Positions 5,089 through 26,321 of a stretch of 64,000 nt of DNA are shown here, piece after piece; positions within the stretch are counted from its first letter, which is position 1, and every line of letters begins with the position of its first letter. The stretch lies in contig NZ_LWLN01000002.1 in the NCBI RefSeq assembly GCF_001953745.1, positions 248,001-312,000 on the forward strand, read 5' to 3'. Source of the stretch: Natrinema saccharevitans. GTDB taxonomy: Archaea > Halobacteriota > Halobacteria > Halobacteriales > Natrialbaceae. Under the pieces are notes generated by a model. The model was not told the origin of the DNA. It did no database searches and was given only the letters and a program-made list of their open reading frames with translations. The position numbers and the translations under genes are program-made.

Positions 5089-6435
5089 ATGGCTGATGGC
5101 GACGATCAACAGTCTCTCTCACAGTCTATCAAAGGCCGTCTTCAAGAAGGCGTTCAAAATTCTGTGTTCCGTGACAAGGGGCTACTTGATCCTGACGCGG
5201 TCATCGACGAGGATCGCATCGTCGGTCGTGACAACCAATTGGACGATATCATAACGTATCTCCGACCGGCGCTGCAGGGAAACCGCCCTCCTAATATGCT
5301 CCTCTATGGCCCATCTGGCACTGGAAAGTCGCTCATCATCAACGCGGTCTGCCAGCAGGTTCTCGAACTTGCGAACTCACAAAGCGACCGTTTCGGGGTC
5401 ATCGAAATCAACTGTCAGACAATCAAGTCTCACGACCGTGCGGTCTATCGTCTGGCTAAGAATGCAGCTGACGAGGCTGGCGTCGATGTCGGTATTCCTC
5501 AGAGCGGAATCTCGACAGACCAGAAACTCAACCGCTTCTACGAGGTTCTGAGCAACAACTTCGACTCGGTGATCATCATTCTGGACGAGGTCGATCTCCT
5601 GGTCGGCCGACAACGAGATCCAAACGACGAACCGGCTTATTCGAAACTGCTCTATCAACTGTCTCGCGCCTCACAACTCGGTCGGATCGAGGGGCACGTC
5701 TCTGTCGCCGCCCTCACGAATGATCCGCGATTTATGGAGGACCTCGACGGGCGAGCCGAGAGCTCGTTCAACCCGCAAGACGTCGTGTTTCCCGATTACG
5801 ACGCGAATCAACTCCAGTCGATTCTCGAGCGCCGTCGCGACGCGTATCAAGACGATGTCCTCGAGGACGGTATCATCCCACTCAGTTCGGCGTTCGCCGC
5901 ACAGGACCACGGCGACGCCCGGAAAGCGATTGACTTGTTCCGGAAAGCCGGGGAGATCGCGGACCGTGCGGGCGAAGATACGATTCGTGAAGAGCACGTT
6001 CGGGACGCCCAGAAAGAGGCCGAACGCGATCGAACGTTGACGCAGATGCAGGGACTGTCGACACAGAAGAAAATCTCGCTCTATGCAACTGCGGTTGTCC
6101 CCGTTTACTCCAGGCAAAATCTAAATGCTGTCCCGAGTACCGTCGCGTATCGTGTCTATCAGTACCTTACAGACCTGCTCGATGCCGACGAAAAGTCACG
6201 AGACTCTTATTTACGATACATGAGTGAAGCCGAGACCTACAATTTCGTCACGTCTGAGAAACGTGGACGGGGCTACGGGAACGGCGTTCACAAAGAGTAT
6301 ACTTTCGTTGATGATCCAGAAGTGGTCGCCGAGACGCTTCAGTCCGATATCCGTCTTGAAGAGGCAGAACACGAGATGGAACTTATCAAATCAGTTGTTA
6401 ACGCTCAGATAGAGGAGTTCTTCGAAGGGAACTAA
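5089..6435 (+). CDS. orc1: Orc1/Cdc6 replication initiator
   Basis: This 448-residue AAA+ ATPase binds ORB boxes and loads MCM helicase at the origin. Walker A is GPSGTGKS (residues 74-81). Walker B is VIIILDEVD, near residue 165, followed by a sensor-1 region VAALTNDPRF and the helical lid DHGDARKAIDLFRKAG. A winged-helix domain fills the last 120 residues, where the Tyr-rich tail EYTFVDDP sits. Length is at the upper end for the family. The ATG at 5089 lies just after a CATATTTATTTATAG promoter element. ORB clusters flank the gene on both sides, so this is almost certainly the cognate initiator of a local origin. Confidence 0.95.
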   Translation: MADGDDQQSLSQSIKGRLQEGVQNSVFRDKGLLDPDAVIDEDRIVGRDNQLDDIITYLRPALQGNRPPNMLLYGPSGTGKSLIINAVCQQVLELANSQSDRFGVIEINCQTIKSHDRAVYRLAKNAADEAGVDVGIPQSGISTDQKLNRFYEVLSNNFDSVIIILDEVDLLVGRQRDPNDEPAYSKLLYQLSRASQLGRIEGHVSVAALTNDPRFMEDLDGRAESSFNPQDVVFPDYDANQLQSILERRRDAYQDDVLEDGIIPLSSAFAAQDHGDARKAIDLFRKAGEIADRAGEDTIREEHVRDAQKEAERDRTLTQMQGLSTQKKISLYATAVVPVYSRQNLNAVPSTVAYRVYQYLTDLLDADEKSRDSYLRYMSEAETYNFVTSEKRGRGYGNGVHKEYTFVDDPEVVAETLQSDIRLEEAEHEMELIKSVVNAQIEEFFEGN

Positions 6436-10253: not shown

Positions 10254-11725
<1,472 letters not shown>

Positions 11726-11827
11726 ACAGACCGGGACCGAGGCGTCGCCCCGGCCCAAAAGTCGTGGCGCGTAGCGCCACGCAGTCCACGTTCGATCGAC
11801 CCACGTCGTGGCCGATCGGGCACCTTT

Positions 11828-11845
11828 GAACTACCAAGGCTAACA
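11828..11845 (+). other. 16S processing stem, 3' strand
   Basis: GAACTACCAAGGCTAACA pairs over 18 bases with 10125-10142. It lies 103 bases after the 16S 3' end and 33 bases before the tRNA-Ala gene. Confidence 0.8.
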
Positions 11846-11878
11846 CCTACTCCCGCTGTCCGCCTTTGTGGCGGACGT

Positions 11879-11950
11879 GGGCCCATAGCTCAGTGGTAGA
11901 GTGCCTCCTTTGCAAGGAGGATGCCCAGGGTTCGAATCCCTGTGGGTCCA
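11879..11950 (+). tRNA. tRNA-Ala (anticodon TGC)
   Basis: The 72-nt tRNA folds well. The acceptor GGGCCCA pairs with TGGGTCC, the anticodon stem CCTCC/GGAGG encloses TTTGCAA, and the T arm is CAGGGTTCGAATCCCTG. The discriminator is A and CCA is not encoded. It lies between 16S and 23S, its standard place in haloarchaeal rRNA operons. Confidence 0.97.
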
Positions 11951-12095
11951 TGGCTCGGGTTGGATCGAATCGTGCCCCTTAAGTGGGGCAGACGATTTCG
12001 GTCTAATCCGAACGAACCGATGCACCACCCCGCGCAAGCGTGGGTGGGAAGGGTCAATGCAGGCCGGCCGTCTACCGGCGTGCAGATGAGACCGT

Positions 12096-12112
12096 GTGTA
12101 CGTGTAGTCCAG
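12096..12112 (+). other. 23S processing stem, 5' strand
   Basis: GTGTACGTGTAGTCCAG is the exact complement of CTGGACTACACGTACAC at 15147-15163. Further pairing (GGACCCGTTC with GAACGGGTCC) continues inwards. The stem encloses the 23S gene and is the expected site of bulge-helix-bulge cleavage. Confidence 0.85.
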
Positions 12113-12179
12113 GCGTCCACTGGACCCGTTCCCGGGTCACGATGTTGCGACTCTGTCGCAACGCCGATCCGATGAACGT

Positions 12180-15089
<2,910 letters not shown>

Positions 15090-15146
15090 ACACTCATACA
15101 CTACATCGCATTGGATCCGTGACGCGCGAACGGGTCCGGACGCAAA

Positions 15147-15163
15147 CTGGACTACACGTACAC
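15147..15163 (+). other. 23S processing stem, 3' strand
   Basis: CTGGACTACACGTACAC pairs with 12096-12112. It is followed 16 bases later by the first tRNA-like element. Confidence 0.85.
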
Positions 15164-15179
15164 TCGGTCTTGGACAGAC

Positions 15180-15221
15180 ACCGATTAGGGTTTGACGACG
15201 GTTCGAGTCCGTCGGTCGGCG
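15180..15221 (+). other. tRNA-like mini-helix before 5S copy 1
   Basis: A T-arm mimic (GACGG TTCGAGT CCGTC, 15197-15213) is followed by GGTCGGC and one unpaired base, directly before the 5S gene. ACCGATT (15180-15186) can pair with GGTCGGC using wobble pairs. There is no anticodon arm. In Haloferax volcanii the 5S 5' end is reported to be cut by tRNase Z at a tRNA-like element, and this structure fits that role. Confidence 0.65.
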
Positions 15222-15343
15222 TTACGGCGGCCATAGCGGCGAGGTGCCTCCCGTACCCATCCCGAACACGGAAGATAAGCTCGCCTGCGTTTCGGTCAGT
15301 ACTGGAGTGGGCGACCCTCTGGGAACCCCGATTCGCCGCCTCC
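15222..15343 (+). rRNA. 5S ribosomal RNA, copy 1
   Basis: The 122-nt 5S gene has TTACGGCGGCC at its 5' end and GCCGCC near its 3' end forming helix I. The internal conserved block CCCGTACCCATCCCGAACACGG is split here as CCCGTACCC and ATCCCGAACACGG. Standard last gene of the operon. Confidence 0.95.
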
Positions 15344-15362
15344 ATTCATATCGGCCGATACG

Positions 15363-15412
15363 GCCGATCTCCCGACAGTGGTCTGACGGCGGTTCGATTC
15401 CGCCGGTCGGCA
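15363..15412 (+). other. tRNA-like mini-helix before 5S copy 2
   Basis: GCCGATC (15363-15369) pairs with GGTCGGC (15405-15411). The T-arm mimic is GGCGG TTCGATT CCGCC (15388-15404). One unpaired A (15412) precedes the 5S gene. The T stem differs from that of copy 1 at paired positions yet still pairs, so the fold rather than the sequence is kept. Confidence 0.65.
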
Positions 15413-15534
15413 TTACAGCGGCCACAGTGGCGAGGTGCCTCCCGTACCCATCCCGAACACGGAAGATAAGTTCGCCTACGTTTCGGTCAGTACTGGAGTG
15501 GGCGACCCTCTGGGAACCCCGATTCGCCGCTTCC
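15413..15534 (+). rRNA. 5S ribosomal RNA, copy 2
   Basis: The second tandem 5S gene lies 191 bases after the first. It differs from copy 1 at six positions. Two pairs of changes are compensatory (helix I G-C to A-T; helix II C-G to T-A), and one change gives a G-T wobble. The fold is preserved, so the copy is probably functional. Confidence 0.93.
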
Positions 15535-16014
15535 ATTCATACCTTCAATCCATATAGCAACTGCTCCGTGATCTTCTTATCAGAGAGGCGAAGTACCGGC
15601 AAAAACCTACGGTAGTTACAGCGGTAGCGAGGCGAAAGCCTACCGGCTTTAGCCGTGGGAGAATGTCAGAACTGTACACCGAAAATACACTACCGCTGGT
15701 CGCACTCGTCCTCGAGGATCTAGCAAGTATTCCGGTACTGCTCACTGTCTGGAGGATAATTGAGGCACTAAGCCCCCTTCCTCAGCGAGGAGGAAATACA
15801 GCGCCGCCCGTATTTTTTGGGCGTATATCTTGGCGTCGACGGACATCTTCTCTCCGGACATAATGTGGGTACTCTTTTTGACGTTCAATTCGTGTAGTTG
15901 CAAAGACATGCCTTCCACGAACTTCGCACTCATACTTGTCCCACCAGTTCCCTGGTCTCTTGATACTATGGCGCATGGGTAAGAAATATTTGACGTCCCC
16001 TATAGGTATCAGTC
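15535..16014. other. Gene-poor stretch with IS relics
   Basis: No intact gene. An IS200/IS605-like end lies at 15615-15668. Minus-strand frames of 63-64 codons at 15742-15976 have no recognisable motif. The right end contains the promoter of the S66 peptidase (AAGAAATATTTGACG, about 15981-15995), close enough to the GTG start for a very short leader. Confidence 0.4.
15615..15668 (+). mobile_element. IS200/IS605-type right-end remnant
   Basis: The hairpin AAAGCCTACCGGCTTT followed by AGCCGTGGGAGAATGTCA is typical of the 3' end of haloarchaeal IS200/IS605 (IS1341-type) elements, where it also forms the end of the TnpB guide RNA. No tnpB reading frame survives upstream, where the 5S gene lies instead. 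It is a solo end, perhaps left by an imprecise deletion. Confidence 0.5.
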
Positions 16015-17227: not shown

Positions 17228-17818
17228 ATGCTCACGCCAACAGTTATCGGGGAATTCGATAGCCAAGCACCGGAAGCCACGAAGACGGCGACGTTCGGTC
17301 TGGGTTGTTTCTGGGGACCCGACGCGGCGTTCGGTGCAGTTGACGGTGTCGTGCGGACTCGAGTCGGCTATGCTGGTGGGACGAAATCCGACCCGTCCTA
17401 TGAGGTTCTCGGCGACCATACGGAAGTCGTGCAGGTCGAATACGATCCCGAGCAGCTCTCGTTCATTGACCTACTCGAGCGAGCGTTTTCAGAACATGAC
17501 CCATATCAGCAGCCCTCGAGGCGGCAGTATCAGAATATCATTTTCACTGAGACGGCTACTCAACACGATCTGCTGCAGACGTTTCTGGACGCCAGTGATT
17601 TCGACAGTACCCGGATCACAACGCGTCTCGAATCACTCGATCGGTTCCATCTCGCAGAAGCCTATCACCAGAAGGTCAACCTCCGTGGAAAACGGTGGAT
17701 CTCCGGTGTATTTACTGACGCGGAGTACGATGACGCGGCGATCAGAGAGTCGCCAGCAGCGGCGAAGCTGAACGCTCACGTTGCTGGCCACGCTGTCAGT
17801 GTTCCGTTTATTAATTAG
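17228..17818 (+). CDS. msrA: Peptide methionine-S-sulfoxide reductase
   Basis: This 196-residue MsrA reduces methionine-S-sulfoxide in proteins. The catalytic motif GCFWG lies at residues 26-30, followed by VRTRVGYAGGTKSDPSYEVLGDHTEVVQV, here split as VGYAGGTKSDPSYE and HTEVVQVEYDP. The usual EQYRS..F segment is replaced by YQQPSRRQYQNIIFTE, a variant of the family. Length is normal. The ATG at 17228 is followed by a short nonconserved leader. It stands alone downstream of the S66 gene with a 160-base gap that has its own TATA-like element. Confidence 0.88.
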   Translation: MLTPTVIGEFDSQAPEATKTATFGLGCFWGPDAAFGAVDGVVRTRVGYAGGTKSDPSYEVLGDHTEVVQVEYDPEQLSFIDLLERAFSEHDPYQQPSRRQYQNIIFTETATQHDLLQTFLDASDFDSTRITTRLESLDRFHLAEAYHQKVNLRGKRWISGVFTDAEYDDAAIRESPAAAKLNAHVAGHAVSVPFIN

Positions 17819-18321: not shown

Positions 18322-18652
18322 ACAATAGTTGAAATAGGTACAATAGGCGAATTCTACTGGTCGTTATGAGATTTGTTGTGAACTCGGTTCAACAGCCAGC
18401 TACAGTTAACCTCTCTAGGAACGGAAAGTAGGATAGTTTTCCTCACCAGGCATACCATCTACAATAGGTACCTTTCTATTACCATCTGTTTTACCTACCT
18501 CATCTATTATACCTATTTCACCTATTCCATCGATTTCACCTACTGTTGCTACCCAACCGATTTGAGTTGCAATAGGTAGAACTATGCTTCAGGAATGTAG
18601 TACAGTCTCAACAGGCTGAGACGGAACCTTCCGAGACAATAGGTTCCTATTG
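18322..18652. repeat. CAATAGGTA boxes upstream of parA
   Basis: About nine copies of a box close to CAATAGGTA on either strand: 18322, 18332, 18340, 18462, inverted copies around 18510 and 18518, 18570, and a palindrome CAATAGGTTCCTATTG at 18637-18652. The palindrome ends 22 bases before the parA ATG and would overlap its core promoter. The arrangement suggests an operator and centromere-like region for the ParA system. Related boxes recur at 22988-23064 and 26226-26321. Confidence 0.65.
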
Positions 18653-18674
18653 CGAATCAACAAACCGAACCGAT

Positions 18675-19571
18675 ATGCCAATGAATAAGACAACAGCCAA
18701 GCCACGTGCCGTCAGCGTGGTCATCCTGAAAGGCGGTGTCGGGAAATCAACGACTTCGATGAATCTCGCGCGCCAGCTCTCGGAGCGCGGGGCGACCCTC
18801 TTCGCCGACCTCGATCCGAACGGTCACGCGACGAACGGGCTCGGGTTCGAAGCGGCATACCAGAGCGAGACCAATCTCGGGGACGTCATCCTCGAGGGGT
18901 CGGCGACGCCACACGACCTGATCCGATCGACCGACCACGGCTTCGATCTACTGCCGTCCTCGAACACGCTCGAGGACGTCGAGAAAGATCTCGCCGGCGC
19001 GATGCAGGGCTCGGCACGAATCAAGTCGAAGATCGTCGACCCACTGCTCGGCGACGAATACGAGTACGTGGTCTTCGACTGTCCGGCATACCCGGGGATG
19101 CTCAACAACAACGCCCTCGTCGCGACGGGGAACGTGATGATCCCGATCGAGCCGGGCTCGAGCGCGATCGGCGGCTACAAGCGAACGATGGAGCGACTCA
19201 TCGAACCGGCACGGGAGTACATCGACGTCGACGTGCTGGCGGTCATCCCGAACAAACTCTCGGACCGGATCGACCAACAGACCGAGGATCGAGAACTCCT
19301 CGAGAACCTCAACACTGCCACCTACGAGGTCAACCCCGGACAGCCGCTCCAAGAGGCGGTTCCCGACTTCGCCCGAATCACCGCCGAGGTGTTCGACGCG
19401 ATCGATGCCGGCGAGACGAGTCCGCCGAAGCCGGGGATCCGCCATCGATCGGCCCTGTCGCGATCGCTCCAGCACAACCAACCGCTCCAGGATTACGATC
19501 CGGAGAACGACCAGATCCCCTACTACGAGGAACTGGCCGAGATCGTCGCAACTGGAGGGATCCAGCGATGA
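18675..19571 (+). CDS. ParA-family partition ATPase
   Basis: This 298-residue Walker ATPase has a deviant Walker A KGGVGKST (residues 19-26) and switch text FADLDPNGHATNGLG. Walker B is YVVFDCPAYPGMLNNN. ParA proteins segregate plasmids or chromosomes with a DNA-bound partner. The first ATG (18675) and a second at 18681 are both possible starts. It overlaps the next gene by four bases (ATGA), so the two are coupled. The upstream CAATAGG boxes probably bind the partner or ParA itself. Confidence 0.9.
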   Translation: MPMNKTTAKPRAVSVVILKGGVGKSTTSMNLARQLSERGATLFADLDPNGHATNGLGFEAAYQSETNLGDVILEGSATPHDLIRSTDHGFDLLPSSNTLEDVEKDLAGAMQGSARIKSKIVDPLLGDEYEYVVFDCPAYPGMLNNNALVATGNVMIPIEPGSSAIGGYKRTMERLIEPAREYIDVDVLAVIPNKLSDRIDQQTEDRELLENLNTATYEVNPGQPLQEAVPDFARITAEVFDAIDAGETSPPKPGIRHRSALSRSLQHNQPLQDYDPENDQIPYYEELAEIVATGGIQR

Positions 19572-20053
19572 GTAATCCGTTCGACGATCTCAAGGAAGAC
19601 GACGAAGAGACCGAGACGGCCGACTCGACCACCGAGACCGAAACCGAGGTTGACGCAAAATCGCCGTCGGGAGGAACCGACGAGGGCGCTTCGGAGCCGA
19701 CAGCGTCCGACTCGAGTCCGAACAGGGAGTTGGACCCAGAACCGCCGACCGACACCGAACTCGCCGCTGAAAACGCGACGGGCATGGCCGACGAACCAGA
19801 ATCACCCGCGGAAGCGGGACCGGCGTTCGAATACAGCGAGGTCCAACAGAAGCCGTTCTACGCTCGCTCCGAGACGGTCGACGAGTTCGAGAACGCGATC
19901 CGAACGACGATCGTCCCGACACTCGCCGAAGCGGACGTCATCGACGAAGAAACCCGAGAGATTCACGACGCTGTCCTTCGACTCGCGAACGAAGAACCCG
20001 AACGGATCGCCGAACTCGTCCTCGAGGAACGGCGACAGGCAGGAGACCATTGA
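19568..20053 (+). CDS. Acidic ParA partner protein
   Basis: This 161-residue protein has an unstructured, very acidic N-terminal half (residues 1-90, rich in D, E, T and S). A compact C-terminal domain follows (FEYSEVQQKPFYARSETVDEFENA, split here, then EETREIHDAVLRLANEEPERIAEL). Genes of this kind sit directly behind parA in many haloarchaeal replicons. It is not a canonical ParB: no helix-turn-helix is visible. The four-base overlap with parA argues for a joint role, plausibly as adaptor or DNA-binding partner; this is inference. Confidence 0.75.
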   Translation: MSNPFDDLKEDDEETETADSTTETETEVDAKSPSGGTDEGASEPTASDSSPNRELDPEPPTDTELAAENATGMADEPESPAEAGPAFEYSEVQQKPFYARSETVDEFENAIRTTIVPTLAEADVIDEETREIHDAVLRLANEEPERIAELVLEERRQAGDH

Positions 20054-20201
20054 TCGCGGAAATCGACAGTTGCGTATCGACTGTCTTCGCTTCGGCGACA
20101 TACGGCTGGGACGCCGTGTGAATCGGTCTGTTCACTCTTCGAAAGGCTGTTGTTCGAGCGAACCAGATCCTGTTTAGTTTCGCCTCGAACCGAAGCGGTC
20201 G

Positions 20202-21092
20202 TCAGATCTGGCCGCCACCGGAGCCACCGAGACCCCCTCCAAGGCCGCGCGTGGAGGACGACCGGTCACCACCGAGTTCGCTGAAGTCCATATCGTCGAA
20301 GAATTCCGGCGCGGTACTCTCGGTCGCGTAGACGTAGAGCGCGGTCTTGGCGACGCCGCTGAGGGCTTTTCCGACCAGTAGCCCGAAGAGGAACGCGGAA
20401 CCGCCGATCAGTACCGTTGCCAGCAGTTGAACCGTACCCGTGCCCGCAGTCACGACGAACGTAAGGGCACCAAGTCCGAGGCCGGCGACCGCCAGCAGGA
20501 ACGAGAAGATGTCGATCGCTCCCACCGCACCGATGGATTCGCCCCACGTGTCTTTGAACGTGCGCGCACTCTCCGAGAACATCTCCGTGACCGAGGGGTC
20601 ACGGAAGACGATCACGGGGACGACGAAATAGGTCATCACACTCCACGCGACTGCGAAGAGTCCGGCGACGATCTGAGCGGCGAGGTTCTCTTCGGACTCG
20701 ATGGCCCGGATGATCACGCCGACGATTGCGGCGATAACTGACCAGATCAACAGCGGAACTTTCCGCTGCCAGGCTGTCGCCAGCGCCGCACGGATCGACG
20801 GCTCCTCGCCGTGGAAGGCAGTGTGCGTCGCGGCGACGAGAGCCGCCGTGAAGAACGATGCGATGAACGTTTCGACGAGGTACGCAACGAACAGGGCGGC
20901 GTACACGGTCGGCCCAGGATCTTCGAAAAGCGGTCCCGTGAGGTACAGACTCCCGAACAACGTTGCGATGAACGCGATGCCGGAGAGTCCACCCACGAGC
21001 GGGAACACGAACAGTTTCGGGTGGGCTCTGAGCACGCGGCCGCTCCGCCGCGCCATACCGAACCCAGTCTTGAGGCGGCTAAACACTCCCAT
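20202..21092 (-). CDS. DUF6159-type membrane protein
   Basis: A 296-residue integral membrane protein of unknown function, common in haloarchaea. The N-terminus MGVFSRLKTGFGMARRSGRVLRAHP is typical of the family (shown here in two parts: MGVFSRLKTGFGMARRS and GRVLRAHP). Six hydrophobic segments are visible at about 28-50, 62-85, 108-128, 135-160, 182-205 and 210-235. The tail is Gly/Ser-rich. It converges on the ParA pair and is transcribed alone. Confidence 0.75.
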   Translation of the reverse strand: MGVFSRLKTGFGMARRSGRVLRAHPKLFVFPLVGGLSGIAFIATLFGSLYLTGPLFEDPGPTVYAALFVAYLVETFIASFFTAALVAATHTAFHGEEPSIRAALATAWQRKVPLLIWSVIAAIVGVIIRAIESEENLAAQIVAGLFAVAWSVMTYFVVPVIVFRDPSVTEMFSESARTFKDTWGESIGAVGAIDIFSFLLAVAGLGLGALTFVVTAGTGTVQLLATVLIGGSAFLFGLLVGKALSGVAKTALYVYATESTAPEFFDDMDFSELGGDRSSSTRGLGGGLGGSGGGQI

Positions 21093-21347
21093 AGCACGTC
21101 GGCGTTGATTCTCAGCGCTGGTAAAAGATGTGCAATAAGTTCAGCTACGTATCACGATCTGGATCGGCGGAGATGCATACTATCATGGACGGCTCTCACG
21201 ATCGGAGTTGGCTTTCGTGCTGGTAGGTGCTATCGCGCGGATAGGGTATGCAATTGCGGGTGCAGCGACGCTTCTCTCGCACTGAATCGTGAATTTAGCT
21301 CGTTTCGTGTAGTGTTCGATGCGTAACTGTGGTCAAATCCTGACGCA

Positions 21348-22757
21348 TTAACTCCGACGGCTCCGATTGTCGGGAGTAAGAAGGGTGTCCATCTCAGCGA
21401 GGTCGAAAAGCGACCAGTTGTCGTCGAGTTCGTCGGCGAGTCCGTCGACGAACCCGCTCCTCGAGAAGAGCGCAAATTCCTCGGTTCGCGTGTCCGGTCC
21501 CCATCGAACGCGGGTCGCTTTGTCGCGCAACGAGTCGACGAGCGCGTGGCCGACCGGATCCGATGTCCATTTGCATTCCCCGAGCAACACCCGGTCAGCC
21601 TCCGGCGCGAGACCGACGATGTCGATTTCGTCTTCCCCGTACCACCACCGACCGACCTCCGAGTAGGGCTCGAGTGCGTCGCGACGGATCGCCTCCCACA
21701 CGGCTTCCAGACAGACGTCCTCGAACGTCGACGCGACGTGATCTGGGAGATTCGGTTCGATCGTTCCGTCGTAGACGACGCCGGGGGCCTCTTCGATACC
21801 GGATCGGTTCGGCTCGACGAATCGGAACCAGAACCGAAGGAATTCGTCCGCGACCCGATACCGCGAGCGCTTCGATTGCTTGGCGGAGGCGGTCACCGGG
21901 ACGTCACGATCAATGAGCCGCAGTCGACGTAACGTCTGCAGGTACTTCGATAGCGGTCCCGATCCGATACCCGTCGCACCGGCGATCTCGTTCGGCGTCG
22001 TATGGCCCGTTGCGACGGCTTCGAGAATGCTCATGTACCGGGCGGGGTTTCGCAACTCCGTCCGGAGCAGGAATTCGGGTTCGTTGTACAGGACGGCCGT
22101 CGGCGTCAAAATATGTGACCGGACGTTTTCGGCGAGTGACCGCGTATAATCGAACAACGTGAGGTACATCGGCGTCCCGCCCGTGATCGCATACGAGCGA
22201 ATCGCGTCGTCGATGTCGTATGCGATCGCATCTCGAGCCTGCCGGAAGGAAAACGGCTGGAGATCGATTTGCCCCGTACGGCGACCGTAGAGCGGACTCT
22301 CGTGACCGAGGACTTCCGACTCCATGGTGCTGACGCTCGAACCGCACAGAACGAGCATCGATTCCGTCGTCTGCAGGTGTTCGTCGACGAACGACTGAAC
22401 GTACGACGGGAGCGAGTCGTTCTCCGCGACGAGATAGGGGAACTCGTCGATAACGACGACGAGTCGTTCCGTCGCGAGTTTCTCGGCGAGATAGTCGAAG
22501 GCCTCGTCCCACCCCTCAATGCGCGGAACGCGGTCGTCGAAGTGACCGGCGATTTGCTCGACGAATTTCTCCCGCTGGCGGTGTTCGGCCTCCTGCGACG
22601 CGAGGAAATAGATGTGCGGCCGGTCGGAACAGAACTCCTTGAGGAGTTCGGTCTTCCCGACGCGACGGCGCCCGTAAACGACGTAGAACTCGTGGCCCGG
22701 CGACTCGAGCGCTGTTTCGAGGGCGTCGAGTTCGTCGACCCGGTCGTAGAAGGTCAT
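21348..22757 (-). CDS. Archaeal AAA ATPase with DUF234 domain
   Basis: This 469-residue protein has an N-terminal archaeal-type ATPase (Walker A YGRRRVGKTELL, Walker B VVVIDEFPYL). A winged helix follows (TPNEIAGATGIGSGPLSKYL), then a C-terminal DUF234 nuclease-like fold (EIDIVGLAPEADRVLLGECKW). The E-x-D...E-C-K pattern in the last part is that of PD-(D/E)XK enzymes. Such proteins are abundant in archaea and are often suspected of mobile-element or defence roles, but the function is not established. It is a single gene with its own promoter near 22775. Confidence 0.85.
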   Translation of the reverse strand: MTFYDRVDELDALETALESPGHEFYVVYGRRRVGKTELLKEFCSDRPHIYFLASQEAEHRQREKFVEQIAGHFDDRVPRIEGWDEAFDYLAEKLATERLVVVIDEFPYLVAENDSLPSYVQSFVDEHLQTTESMLVLCGSSVSTMESEVLGHESPLYGRRTGQIDLQPFSFRQARDAIAYDIDDAIRSYAITGGTPMYLTLFDYTRSLAENVRSHILTPTAVLYNEPEFLLRTELRNPARYMSILEAVATGHTTPNEIAGATGIGSGPLSKYLQTLRRLRLIDRDVPVTASAKQSKRSRYRVADEFLRFWFRFVEPNRSGIEEAPGVVYDGTIEPNLPDHVASTFEDVCLEAVWEAIRRDALEPYSEVGRWWYGEDEIDIVGLAPEADRVLLGECKWTSDPVGHALVDSLRDKATRVRWGPDTRTEEFALFSRSGFVDGLADELDDNWSLFDLAEMDTLLTPDNRSRRS

Positions 22758-22987
22758 ACTCTAGATAATGGTTATTGCGATAATGACTTATGTGTTTCGT
22801 CGATCGCAACCCCATTGGAGTACTGGCCGGACCAATCGTCTGGCGGCGCCGATCCGACGACTTCCGCTACGGGGATTAGGTTGTCAAAGCGCTCAGCCAG
22901 TCCAATGAAATCGAACGACGACCGGACCGAGAGATCTGTTCCAGTAGCTTGATCCCATATTCCCGCGTATTACCGCCTCTTGCACAG

Positions 22988-23064
22988 GAATAGGTAAAAT
23001 AGCTACAATATCATGAATAGGTTCAAAATGTAGTCTAGTTACAATAGGTAGCCAAGCTATTCCG
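22988..23064. repeat. CAATAGGTA boxes, second cluster
   Basis: GAATAGGTA, CTACAATAT, GAATAGGTT, ACAATAGGTAG and an inverted AGCTATTCC lie within 77 bases. They match the boxes upstream of parA. No gene starts directly beside them; the nearest is the ATPase gene 230 bases to the left. Confidence 0.55.
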
Positions 23065-23633
23065 ACTGGTCCCCGCTCCGGATGTACTCGAGCAACAAGC
23101 CCCGGGACTCCGAACGATAGGACGCTGAAACTCCTATACGTCTCGAACCGACTCACCGAGATGGCGCTGAACCGACTGCCAGGTACCTGAACGGGCCGAC
23201 GCAGGCTGCGACTCAGTATCGAACTACGTCGAACACATCGATAAGGAGAGTCCTATAAGAAACGGACACGAAACGCGGATCGCGGAACGAGCCGATCAGA
23301 TCGAGTGGCTTGAGATGACTCATGTTCGTGATCTCGAGGCGGTCGTCGGTTGTCTCTGGGTCGGGTTCGCTGACTGCCACGAGTGTATGAACGTTGGCTT
23401 GACCGATATAGCGGAAGGGGGATGGTTCCACCCGTTCCACCCTCTGCTTTCTGGCGGTTTTCGAGTTCCACCCTTGAGTCGACAGCAACGAATAGCTACC
23501 AAAGAGTCGTAAAGGTAGATTCTAGCAACTTGACTTCCTCTAACGTAGATGTTAGATCGCGTCTCAGTCCGAACTCTCCACGAAGTACGTGTCCACTCGC
23601 ACAGTTTAACCGTCCTCCTAACACTTCGAACAC

Positions 23634-23828
23634 ATCGATAGAGGGGTGTCTCTGTCCGCTCAATCAGATCTCCCCTTTCTCGAGCAGTACCCCTTTGAGC
23701 CAAACAGATCGATAGAGGGGTCTCCCGGTGTAACTCGAGTCCTCGTCGATTCGTTCCTGGTCGATCATTCGTTCGGCACCGAGATATCAGTGAACGACTC
23801 CCACTGACACTTCGATAGAGGTGTGTCC
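23634..23828 (+). repeat. Three CGATAGAGGGGTGTC boxes
   Basis: ATCGATAGAGGGGTGTCTC (23634), GATCGATAGAGGGGTCTCCC (23707) and TTCGATAGAGGTGTGTCC (23811) share a 15-base core in the same direction, with 73 and 104 bases between starts. The G-run resembles the G-string of origin boxes, but the core differs from the ORBs at 4.4-6.8 kb. They could be iterons of a second initiator that is not in this window. Confidence 0.55.
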
Positions 23829-23874
23829 GATGGTTTCCTTCCAGTGGCACCGAAAGACGGTTTGGTTCTAGCTG

Positions 23875-23917
23875 ATTAACCAACACTAGTCTTTTCACCC
23901 TTTCTGTCGGTTAAGAC
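23875..23917. promoter_or_regulatory. Paired TTAACCAACA / GGTTAAGAC element
   Basis: ATTAACCAACAC (23875-23886) and GTCGGTTAAGAC (23906-23917) form an interrupted inverted repeat like that at 6981-7025. It lies about 70 bases upstream of the FAD-oxidoreductase gene and just after the CGATAGAGG boxes. Confidence 0.5.
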
Positions 23918-23987
23918 ACTACGTTCGGTAGCTGCCGGTTCGTTCACTCCCGTAGCGTTGAAGATAGGATAGTAGCTACTCAAGCGT

Positions 23988-25358
23988 ATGATCTCTTCTG
24001 GCCACCCACGGTACGACGCCGATCGGGTCTCTCGAGTCGGTGGGCATGCGGTGGTTGTTGGGGCGAGTATGGCGGGTCTGTTAGCCGGTCGTGTACTCGC
24101 GGACGCCTTTCGGACGGTGACGATTATCGATCGCGACCCGTTACCAGACGAGGCCGTCGCGAGACCGAGCGTGCCCCAGGCCGACCACGTACACGTGATG
24201 CTCGAGCCGGGACGCGTGATTCTGGAAGACCTGTTCCCCGGATACGGCGAGGAACTCCTCTCGTCGGGCGGGCTGGGTATCGACAACGCGACCGATCTCG
24301 AATACTATCAGCGGGGTGAGTTCCTCGCCGAGGGACCGAACCGTCTCCCGATGTATTGTGCGAGCCGCCCGCTGTTCGAACGGATCGTTCGCCGACGCCT
24401 CGCCGAACGCGACGACGTCACGCTGCGGGCCGAGTGCCAGTTCACTGCATACGATTTCGACGGCTCCGCCTCTCGGATCGAGGGCGTTCGAATCGCCAAC
24501 AGCGACGGCTGCAATGAAACGCTCGCGGCCGACGTGGTCGTCGATGCGACGGGCCGGACGTCTCGAACACCCGCGTGGCTCGAGCGACATCACTACGCTC
24601 CACCGGTCGAAGAGGAAGTCACGGTCGATCTCGCCTACAGTACGCTCGTCCTCGAGCGTCCGTCCGCGGACCGACACGGGGTGATGATCGTTCCCTCACC
24701 GCCGGACACTCGCGGCGGAACGGCGATCCCCGTCGAGGACGATCGCTGGATCGTGACGCTGTTCGGTCTCCACGGGGACCACCCACCGACGGACGCCGCC
24801 GGCATCGAGCGGTTCGCCCGCCGCTTGCCGACGCCGGAGATCCATCGCCTGCTCGAGACGCACGAGTGGGTGTCCGACGACGTTCGCCAGTACCCCTTCC
24901 CGTCCAGTCGCAGACGGCGATACGAGGATCTCCATCGGTTTCCCGACGGACTGCTCGTTATCGGCGACGCGATCGCGAGTTTCAATCCGATCTACGGACA
25001 GGGGATGTCCGTCGCTGCCCTCGAGGCGATCCAACTTCATCACGCGCTCGCAGATGGCGGACTGGCGGACCTCGCTTCGCGGTTTTTCGATCGCGTCGGG
25101 GACGTCGTCGATACCGTCTGGCGAATGGCTGTCGGTGCCGATTTCGAGTTCGCCGACACGACGGGTCCGAAACCGTTGGGAACGGACCTATTGAATCGCT
25201 ATCTCGCACGCGTTATCGAAACTGCACAGACGGACGCTCACGTGTCGGACCGCTTTGCCAGGGTCCTACGCCTGGAGGAACCGCCGCCGACGCTCTTCGC
25301 CCCGTCCGTTCTCTGGCGGGTACTCGCCCCGACGGAGGTGGGTCGTCGTGTTCGATGA
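23988..25358 (+). CDS. FAD-dependent monooxygenase-like oxidoreductase
   Basis: This 456-residue flavoprotein has a Rossmann motif near the N-terminus (HAVVVGASMAGLLAGRVL) and a second FAD contact (DGLLVIGDAIASFNPIYGQG) around residue 325, as in PHBH/squalene-epoxidase-type monooxygenases. The substrate is unknown. The ATG at 23988 precedes the nucleotide-binding strand by about 18 residues, a little long; GTG starts nearer the motif are possible. It overlaps the next gene, an epoxide-hydrolase-like enzyme, by 11 bases, so the two are translationally coupled. An epoxidation-hydrolysis pair is a reasonable guess. Confidence 0.8.
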   Translation: MISSGHPRYDADRVSRVGGHAVVVGASMAGLLAGRVLADAFRTVTIIDRDPLPDEAVARPSVPQADHVHVMLEPGRVILEDLFPGYGEELLSSGGLGIDNATDLEYYQRGEFLAEGPNRLPMYCASRPLFERIVRRRLAERDDVTLRAECQFTAYDFDGSASRIEGVRIANSDGCNETLAADVVVDATGRTSRTPAWLERHHYAPPVEEEVTVDLAYSTLVLERPSADRHGVMIVPSPPDTRGGTAIPVEDDRWIVTLFGLHGDHPPTDAAGIERFARRLPTPEIHRLLETHEWVSDDVRQYPFPSSRRRRYEDLHRFPDGLLVIGDAIASFNPIYGQGMSVAALEAIQLHHALADGGLADLASRFFDRVGDVVDTVWRMAVGADFEFADTTGPKPLGTDLLNRYLARVIETAQTDAHVSDRFARVLRLEEPPPTLFAPSVLWRVLAPTEVGRRVR

Positions 25359-26223
25359 CCTCCCGGACTCGACCAGTCACGAGATGGTCGAGACCAACGG
25401 GATCCGACTGCATACGGTCACGGCGGGACCGGACGACGGCGAGCCGGTCGTGCTACTCCACGGGTTTCCCGAGTTCTGGTACGGCTGGCGGTCACAGATC
25501 CCGGCGCTTGCCGCGGCCGGCTATCGGGTCATCGTCCCGGATCAGCGGGGATACAATCGGAGCGAGAAACCAGCCGGTATCGATTCCTATACCGTCGATA
25601 CGCTGGCCGCCGACGTGATCGGCCTCCTCGATGCGTTCGGGTACGAACGGGCACAGTTCGTCGGACACGACTGGGGTGCCGGCGTTACGTGGCAGGCGTT
25701 GCTTGCCCATCCCGAACGGATCCGGCGTGCCGTCACGATGAACGTTCCCCACCCGGTAGCGCTCGAGGCGTTTCTTCGGCGGAAGCCGAGCCAACTGCTG
25801 AAGAGCTGGTACATGTTCTTCTTCCAGCTGCCGGCGGTCCCCGAACGGACGTGGCGCGCGGCCGACTGGCGTCTCCTTCGGTGGTTCGTGGATACGTCGA
25901 ATCGGGACGAGACGTGCACCGAGGCTACCCTCGACCGATACCGGGACGCGTGGTCCCGCCCCGGCGCGTTCACCGGGATGCTCAACTGGTACCGGGCGCT
26001 CTTTCGCGGCGACGTGGCGGATCCGCCCACGATGACGGTCGAGCCGCCGACGATGCTGCTCTGGGGTGCCGAGGATCCGTATCTCCATCGCGGGATGGCG
26101 AGACCGAGCATCGAACGGTGTACCTCCGGTCGACTCGAGTTCGTCGACGACGCGACCCACTGGCTCCACCACGAGGTTCCGGACCGCGTGAACGATCTCC
26201 TCCTCGAGTTTCTGGAACGCTGA
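25348..26223 (+). CDS. Epoxide-hydrolase-like alpha/beta hydrolase
   Basis: This protein of about 291 residues has HGFPEFWYGWR (oxyanion hole) and the nucleophile elbow GHDWGAG with Asp, the signature of epoxide hydrolases and haloalkane dehalogenases. It also has the acid region LLWGAEDPYL and the catalytic His in DDATHWLHHE. The GTG at 25348 overlaps the end of the flavoprotein gene; the ATG at 25384 is an alternative that starts at MVETNGIRL. An Asp nucleophile excludes ordinary esterase chemistry. It probably hydrates an epoxide made by the upstream oxygenase; the substrate is unknown. Confidence 0.85.
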   Translation: MFDDLPDSTSHEMVETNGIRLHTVTAGPDDGEPVVLLHGFPEFWYGWRSQIPALAAAGYRVIVPDQRGYNRSEKPAGIDSYTVDTLAADVIGLLDAFGYERAQFVGHDWGAGVTWQALLAHPERIRRAVTMNVPHPVALEAFLRRKPSQLLKSWYMFFFQLPAVPERTWRAADWRLLRWFVDTSNRDETCTEATLDRYRDAWSRPGAFTGMLNWYRALFRGDVADPPTMTVEPPTMLLWGAEDPYLHRGMARPSIERCTSGRLEFVDDATHWLHHEVPDRVNDLLLEFLER

Positions 26224-26225
26224 CG

Positions 26226-26321
26226 CTCTACCTATTGGAGCTATTGAAGCTATTTGGAACACTCTACCTATTGGGGCTATTGAAGCTATTTGAAACACTC
26301 TGCCTATTGGACTATTCTGTA
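26226..26321. repeat. 36-bp tandem repeat with CCTATTG boxes
   Basis: Two full units and a partial third with an exact 36-base period start at 26226, 26262 and 26298. Each unit contains CTACCTATTGG then GCTATTGAAGCTATTTG. The third is partial (CTCTGCCTATTGGACTATTC). CCTATTG is the complement of the CAATAGG box near parA. The array begins two bases after the hydrolase stop codon. Confidence 0.75.

Follow-up and report, generated by a model that had tools for sequence, protein, structure and literature searches.

A putative ParA-type partition locus of a Natrinema megaplasmid, with an acidic partner family and arrays of 9-bp iterons

In the Sulfolobales, SegAB couples a chromosomally encoded ParA-type ATPase to the small DNA-binding protein SegB, whose sites are dispersed and palindromic. 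The AspA–ParB–ParA cassette of the archaeal plasmid pNOB8 has a 23-bp palindrome as its site (PMC5120986), while a secondary replicon of Deinococcus radiodurans has the direct-repeat arrays cisII and cisMP ahead of its par genes; their 18-bp and 14-bp iterons are bound by ParB homologues and are also origins (PMC7671480). In the type Ib system delta-omega-parS of pSM19035, a ParA without an N-terminal HTH has the small RHH ParB omega as its partner. Its repeats are contiguous, non-palindromic 7-bp heptads (WATCACW) in both orientations, and at least four of them are needed to activate ParA; there are six parS sites, several of which overlap promoters (PMC9499535).

The locus analysed here, from Natrinema saccharevitans, shares with pSM19035 a ParA lacking an N-terminal HTH, a small partner, several candidate centromere sites, and short contiguous non-palindromic repeats that occur in both orientations and overlap the par promoter region. 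It differs in that the repeat is 9 bp long and of another sequence (ACAATAGGT), the partner is not detectably RHH, its N-terminal tail, which bears an NPFDDL motif, is long and acidic, and the host is a haloarchaeon. The short-N-terminus ParA, the downstream partner in the same operon and the short-repeat array over the par promoter region are type Ib ParABS traits of arrangement, whereas the partner matched no ParB in Pfam or NCBIfam, in contrast to the HTH/CTPase ParB of canonical ParABS. As in SegAB, an archaeal ParA-type ATPase stands beside a small partner (here a putative DNA-binding protein), but SegAB is chromosomal, the sites here are 9-bp arrays, and the partner matched no SegB or other PDB chain. 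With pNOB8 the locus has in common an archaeal plasmid ParA cassette, but whereas pNOB8 has three genes, with those for AspA and ParB upstream of parA, here there are two, with the partner downstream of parA and no ParB-like or AspA-like gene; with D. radiodurans it has in common that a secondary replicon bears direct-repeat arrays ahead of par genes.

The window, by which we mean the whole 64,000-nucleotide stretch analysed and to which coordinates refer, covers positions 248,001–312,000 of contig C2 in a 3.98-Mb genome of three contigs, two of them extrachromosomal: C2 (421,898 bp, 422 kb) and C3 (84,960 bp, 85 kb). Among named relatives, the ParA is closest to proteins of Natrinema, at 98% and 97% identity, and the plasmid record nearest to the partner comes from N. 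thermotolerans and is 987 kb long. On these grounds we regard C2 as a putative megaplasmid. An orc1/cdc6 gene (5164–6306) lies 12 kb upstream of the 9-bp repeats. Between it and the par locus is a complete rRNA operon (10254–15535) with 16S, tRNA, 23S and two tandem 5S genes; a 191-bp tandem duplication at 15189–15541 comprises the 5S rRNA gene and its flank, in copies that are 93% identical. The nearest recognised gene upstream of the par locus is msrA (17228–17818), and the order msrA–parA–partner is also found on Haloferax plasmids, with orc1 adjoining. A gene for an ATPase_2/DUF234 protein (21348–22757) follows, as it does after the par locus in several Natrinema. The features of the locus are as follows.

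18322..18348, plus strand: array A1, three contiguous iterons ACAATAGTT GAAATAGGT ACAATAGGC, from the array scan
18461..18469, plus strand: single iteron ACAATAGGT, inside the TACAATAGGTACC block, conserved across aligned loci
18493..18546, minus strand: array A2, contiguous iterons at 18493, 18502, 18511, 18520, 18529 (weak) and 18538
18569..18577, plus strand: single iteron GCAATAGGT
18636..18653, no strand assigned: inverted pair ACAATAGGT/TCCTATTGC, in full ACAATAGGTTCCTATTGC, 22–39 nt upstream of the parA ATG
18675..19571, plus strand: parA, deviant Walker-A ATPase of 298 aa, KGGVGKS at residues 19–25
19568..20053, plus strand: partner, putative centromere-binding protein of 161 aa, its start overlapping the parA stop
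22987..23063, plus strand: array B, iterons at 22987, 22996, 23014 and 23041 (plus) and 23055 (minus)
26226..26318, minus strand: array C, iterons at 26230, 26239, 26248, 26266, 26275, 26284, 26302 and 26310

The parA product, which is conserved on many haloarchaeal plasmids, matches Pfam AAA_31 (1.2e-28, from residue 12) and, under that model's cut-off, NCBIfam ParA_partition (3.3e-14); its relatives in the PDB are ParA, Soj and McdA. Because KGGVGKS is already reached at residues 19–25, there is no room for an N-terminal HTH, as in type Ib proteins. The partner gene, downstream of parA in the same two-gene operon, sits beside nearly every relative of this parA. On one Halomicrobium urmianum plasmid (unnamed2) it is present without an annotated parA ahead of it; an apparent ParA C-terminal reading frame in the DNA upstream may be a broken parA.

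The partner consists of an N-terminal MSNPFDDL motif, an acidic linker whose length is highly variable among relatives, and a C-terminal helical domain of 78 aa that follows a strand-like QQKPFYAR. P4, F5, D7 and L8 are invariant, as are Y98, R130, E131 and H133. For the C-terminal domain, AlphaFold2 gave a pLDDT of 94, with helices at 18–38, 46–59 and 61–76 after the strand-like stretch. Eight basic residues fall within the C-terminal 79 aa, which is usual for a halophile and no positive sign of DNA binding. The original prediction of a ParA system with an acidic partner lacking a ParB-like HTH is borne out: the partner is small, conserved and unannotated, and neither a ParB nor an HTH domain was found in it by Pfam or NCBIfam.

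Searches of Pfam, NCBIfam, PHROGs and the PDB returned no match to the partner. No SegB-like chain was matched by its profile in the PDB, although a remote relation to SegB is possible, and Foldseek, run against the PDB with the full protein and with the C-terminal domain separately, matched nothing; thus neither sequence nor fold similarity to known centromere-binding proteins was found. RHH proteins have the order strand-helix-helix. The partner matched none of the RHH families in Pfam, and its hhalign probability against eight RHH proteins from the same genome and the partner of PhiCh1 was 0.8%, no better than column shuffles, so that RHH membership was unsupported by profile (Pfam, NCBIfam, PHROGs, hhalign) or by fold (Foldseek). 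A strand followed by helices fits the RHH topology and suggests such a fold, which we keep as a topology-based guess because the profile comparison with true RHH proteins was at noise level. The PhiCh1 cassette (L109:2477–3638) is similar in having a haloarchaeal ParA and a small downstream partner with an N-terminal NPWED motif resembling the NPFDDL type, but the C-terminal domain of that partner is different, resembling an ordinary RHH when judged by eye (NVNMYLPEDLVEEL), and a 9-bp array was not seen upstream in PhiCh1.

The repeats were originally described as dispersed boxes. They are real and enriched: the window holds 16 matches to CAATAGGTA at up to one mismatch where 3.3 are expected, a number reached in 0 of 100 shuffles, and 12 of the 16 lie within 18322–26321, where they had been placed. 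Far from being dispersed, they are 9-bp iterons of consensus ACAATAGGT in strict 9-bp register: about 12 copies on both strands over the 330 bp ahead of parA, five at 22987–23063 and eight at 26230–26318. The 36-bp tandem array noted at 26226 was correctly located (26226–26316), but its repeat is itself composed of four 9-bp iterons. A random genome-wide distribution, named at the outset as refuting the prediction, was not what we saw. Exact CAATAGGTA occurs seven times in 3.98 Mb, five of them at this locus, and tandem AATAGNNNNAATAG 12 times, nine of them in this 8 kb, as compared with two for the reversed-pattern control. A lone CAATAGGTA at C2:227366, which has no scoring neighbours, and one on C1 are single boxes that we treated as chance.

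The matrix used for scanning, 9 bp wide, was derived from the sequences preceding parA at 45 other loci, with this genome and its closest Natrinema relatives excluded. With it we looked for four tandem units over all of C2 and C3. In these 507 kb only the three clusters ahead of parA, at array B and at array C were found, and shuffled sequence never exceeded the threshold; scores in array A2 reached 11.5 bits per iteron, against a shuffle maximum of 1.8. The earlier observation that no comparable cluster exists elsewhere in the window thus extends to both contigs.

The arrays are conserved in relatives. Spacings between AATAG boxes on the same strand were predominantly 9 (81 cases), 18 (80), 27 (42) and 36 (38), and no spacing outside the multiples of 9 had more than six cases. 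When periods of 6–13 were compared, 9 was the best in all 49 clade-A parA loci, from Natrialbaceae and Haladaptatus. In the alignment of upstream regions across genera, few parts are as well conserved as the inverted pair and the TACAATAGGTACC block, and a plus/minus iteron pair stands at the same position in many relatives. In N. thermotolerans and N. mahii, too, array B stands at the same place, upstream of the ATPase gene, and its indels are multiples of 9 bp; the ATPase of N. thermotolerans is 97% identical to the protein here. A second array about 3 kb away is also present in Haloterrigena salina and Natronorubrum halalkaliphilum, while no array C was seen in relatives within the flanks examined. 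The proposal of multiple centromere sites over 8 kb therefore stands in so far as there are several clusters, of which the first is kept in different genera and the second throughout Natrinema; a centromere role for all three is putative.

Paralogous ParA–partner pairs, with ParAs about 40–55% identical, occur on further plasmids, within this haloarchaeal family and in others, among them pNRC200 of Halobacterium, Haloferax plasmids and pNATPE02. Iterons of other clades differ in sequence (for example ACACnGTGT, ACAAAATCT and GCTATTCAT), but the period is still 9, which was the best of periods 6–13 in 48 of 49 other partner-bearing loci; among three ParA loci without this partner it was best in one, and weakly. 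The mean periodicity score was 7.2 over 102 par loci and 1.1 ± 1.2 in low-GC windows of C2, a fair background because coding DNA itself gives some lag-9 signal. The best periods were obtained by period folding, since EM motif discovery, run over both strands, mixed different registers and left the consensuses of some clades blurred. By eye a TACNNNNTG framework shared by every iteron class is attractive, but we do not claim it. Since 9 is divisible by 3, the array ahead of parA at L060 can be read through as an open frame (TLFLFMLFLLFEVFM...), and this may mislead gene finders into annotating long parA N-termini.

Iteron type follows a strand-like motif of the partner. Counting loci, which are not independent events, and leaving out five with wrong reading frames (L009, L011, L044, L051 and L112), the 52 with a [KR]P[FLI]Y[AV]R motif had 3–16 AATAG boxes each, whereas the 30 with K[ST][VI]YVR, HSVYVR or HGFYVR had 0–2. 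Thus [KR]P-x-Y-[AV]-R pairs with AATAG and K[ST][VI]YVR with ACAnTG, and where S replaces K/R, as in the clade of the C3 paralogue (SPLYAR), AATAG is lost. There is at least one exception, L131, with SPIYAR and nine AATAG boxes. The ParAs of clades A and E are only about 50% identical, yet K/R-P and AATAG are common to both. This tracking of the strand-like motif points to the partner as the likely iteron binder.

Two other assignments of the reader of the iterons may be weighed against these data. It is highly unlikely that they are read by ParA itself or by some further host DNA-binding protein encoded at an unlinked site. The partner belongs to no recognisable DNA-binding family and its binding is itself only predicted, which leaves room for such a reader; but ParA has no N-terminal HTH, iteron type follows the partner motif more closely than it follows ParA similarity (as in clades A and E), and a shared host factor is unlikely because each clade has its own iteron sequence. 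We consider it very improbable that the repeats are bound by a replication initiator, as in the origins of iteron plasmids or in Deinococcus secondary replicons, where arrays serve as both ori and parS (PMC7671480). An orc1/cdc6 gene does lie 12 kb upstream, plasmids of Haloferax and Halorussus have orc1 close to their par genes, and the genome is GC-rich while the repeats are AT-rich. Against this, the repeats accompany parA and the partner while orc1 varies in distance or is absent from the flank, and it is the strand motif of the partner that their sequence tracks.

There is an outside chance that the iterons only autoregulate the parA–partner operon and neighbouring genes, the centromere lying elsewhere. 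The main array and the inverted pair are directly ahead of parA, array B is about 230 bp upstream of the ATPase gene, and the single boxes set apart from the arrays may be no more than operators. However, roughly 12 copies within 330 bp, in both orientations, far exceed the needs of an operator, arrays B and C are 4–8 kb away, array C follows a gene end with no obvious promoter after it, and known type Ib systems use the same repeats as operator and centromere (PMC9499535). Neutral simple repeats generated by slippage would account for the regular 36-bp tandem repeat of array C and for array lengths that vary by whole units, but are barely credible given that iterons and inverted pair are kept across genera while spacers have diverged, that both orientations occur, and that the matrix transfers between genera.

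The most probable explanation of the sequence data is that this is an active ParA-type partition system of a 422-kb haloarchaeal megaplasmid, whose partner binds the 9-bp iteron arrays. It is best read as a type-Ib-like system analogous to delta-omega-parS, with a combined operator and centromere and satellite centromeres. The partner would dimerize via its C-terminal domain and bind iterons side by side; by analogy with pSM19035, it would form a coat over contiguous iterons from which its N-terminal tails are offered to ParA. The acidic tail, with its conserved NPFDDL-type motif, would reach nucleoid-bound ParA and trigger ATP hydrolysis, and the plasmid would follow the ParA gradient. Arrays B and C, 4–8 kb downstream, would be additional centromere sites. 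The inverted pair, which the original prediction had placed over the parA promoter, lies 22–39 nt before the ATG, where the TATA element of a leaderless haloarchaeal transcript would be expected, suggesting autorepression; it is a putative operator, and together with the array ahead of parA would act as both operator and centromere. The original interpretation was thus largely right but understated, having missed the 9-bp register, the haloarchaea-wide family and the co-variation of partner and iteron.

Clade-A parA is present in 29 of 61 family genomes, with one full-length copy in each, and several of these genomes also have a clade-B or clade-E system on another contig. In the present genome the systems of C2 and C3 are of different types, and no type-A array is found on C3. 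Single clade-A copies fit incompatibility groups, although vertical inheritance would give single copies too.

Haloarchaeal cells carry several megaplasmids each, and to our knowledge the sharing-out of their large plasmids is unexplained by any known DNA-binding partner. A recent survey reported essentially no ParABS operons in archaea (PMC12704722), and in the open literature, with subscription papers and preprints mostly outside the search, neither a haloarchaeal ParA partner nor a 9-bp iteron centromere was found described. The mechanism proposed is of a known kind; in outline, the comparisons support a new partner family and a new class of iteron centromere conserved across haloarchaea. 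Somewhat less firmly, we favour a haloarchaea-wide partition class in which partners built from an N-terminal motif (NPFDDL, NRFAGL or DPFADL), an acidic linker and a new C-terminal DNA-binding domain would read 9-bp iteron centromeres, here one main and two satellites, and in which iterons and strand residues would have co-diversified into incompatibility groups that let several megaplasmids share one cell. For many haloarchaeal plasmids, including pNRC200, this gives a concrete candidate pair for each class, a likely centromere-binding partner and its DNA site, together with a predicted code from partner motif to iteron. It may thereby offer a route to defining haloarchaeal plasmid incompatibility groups and to building stable vectors.
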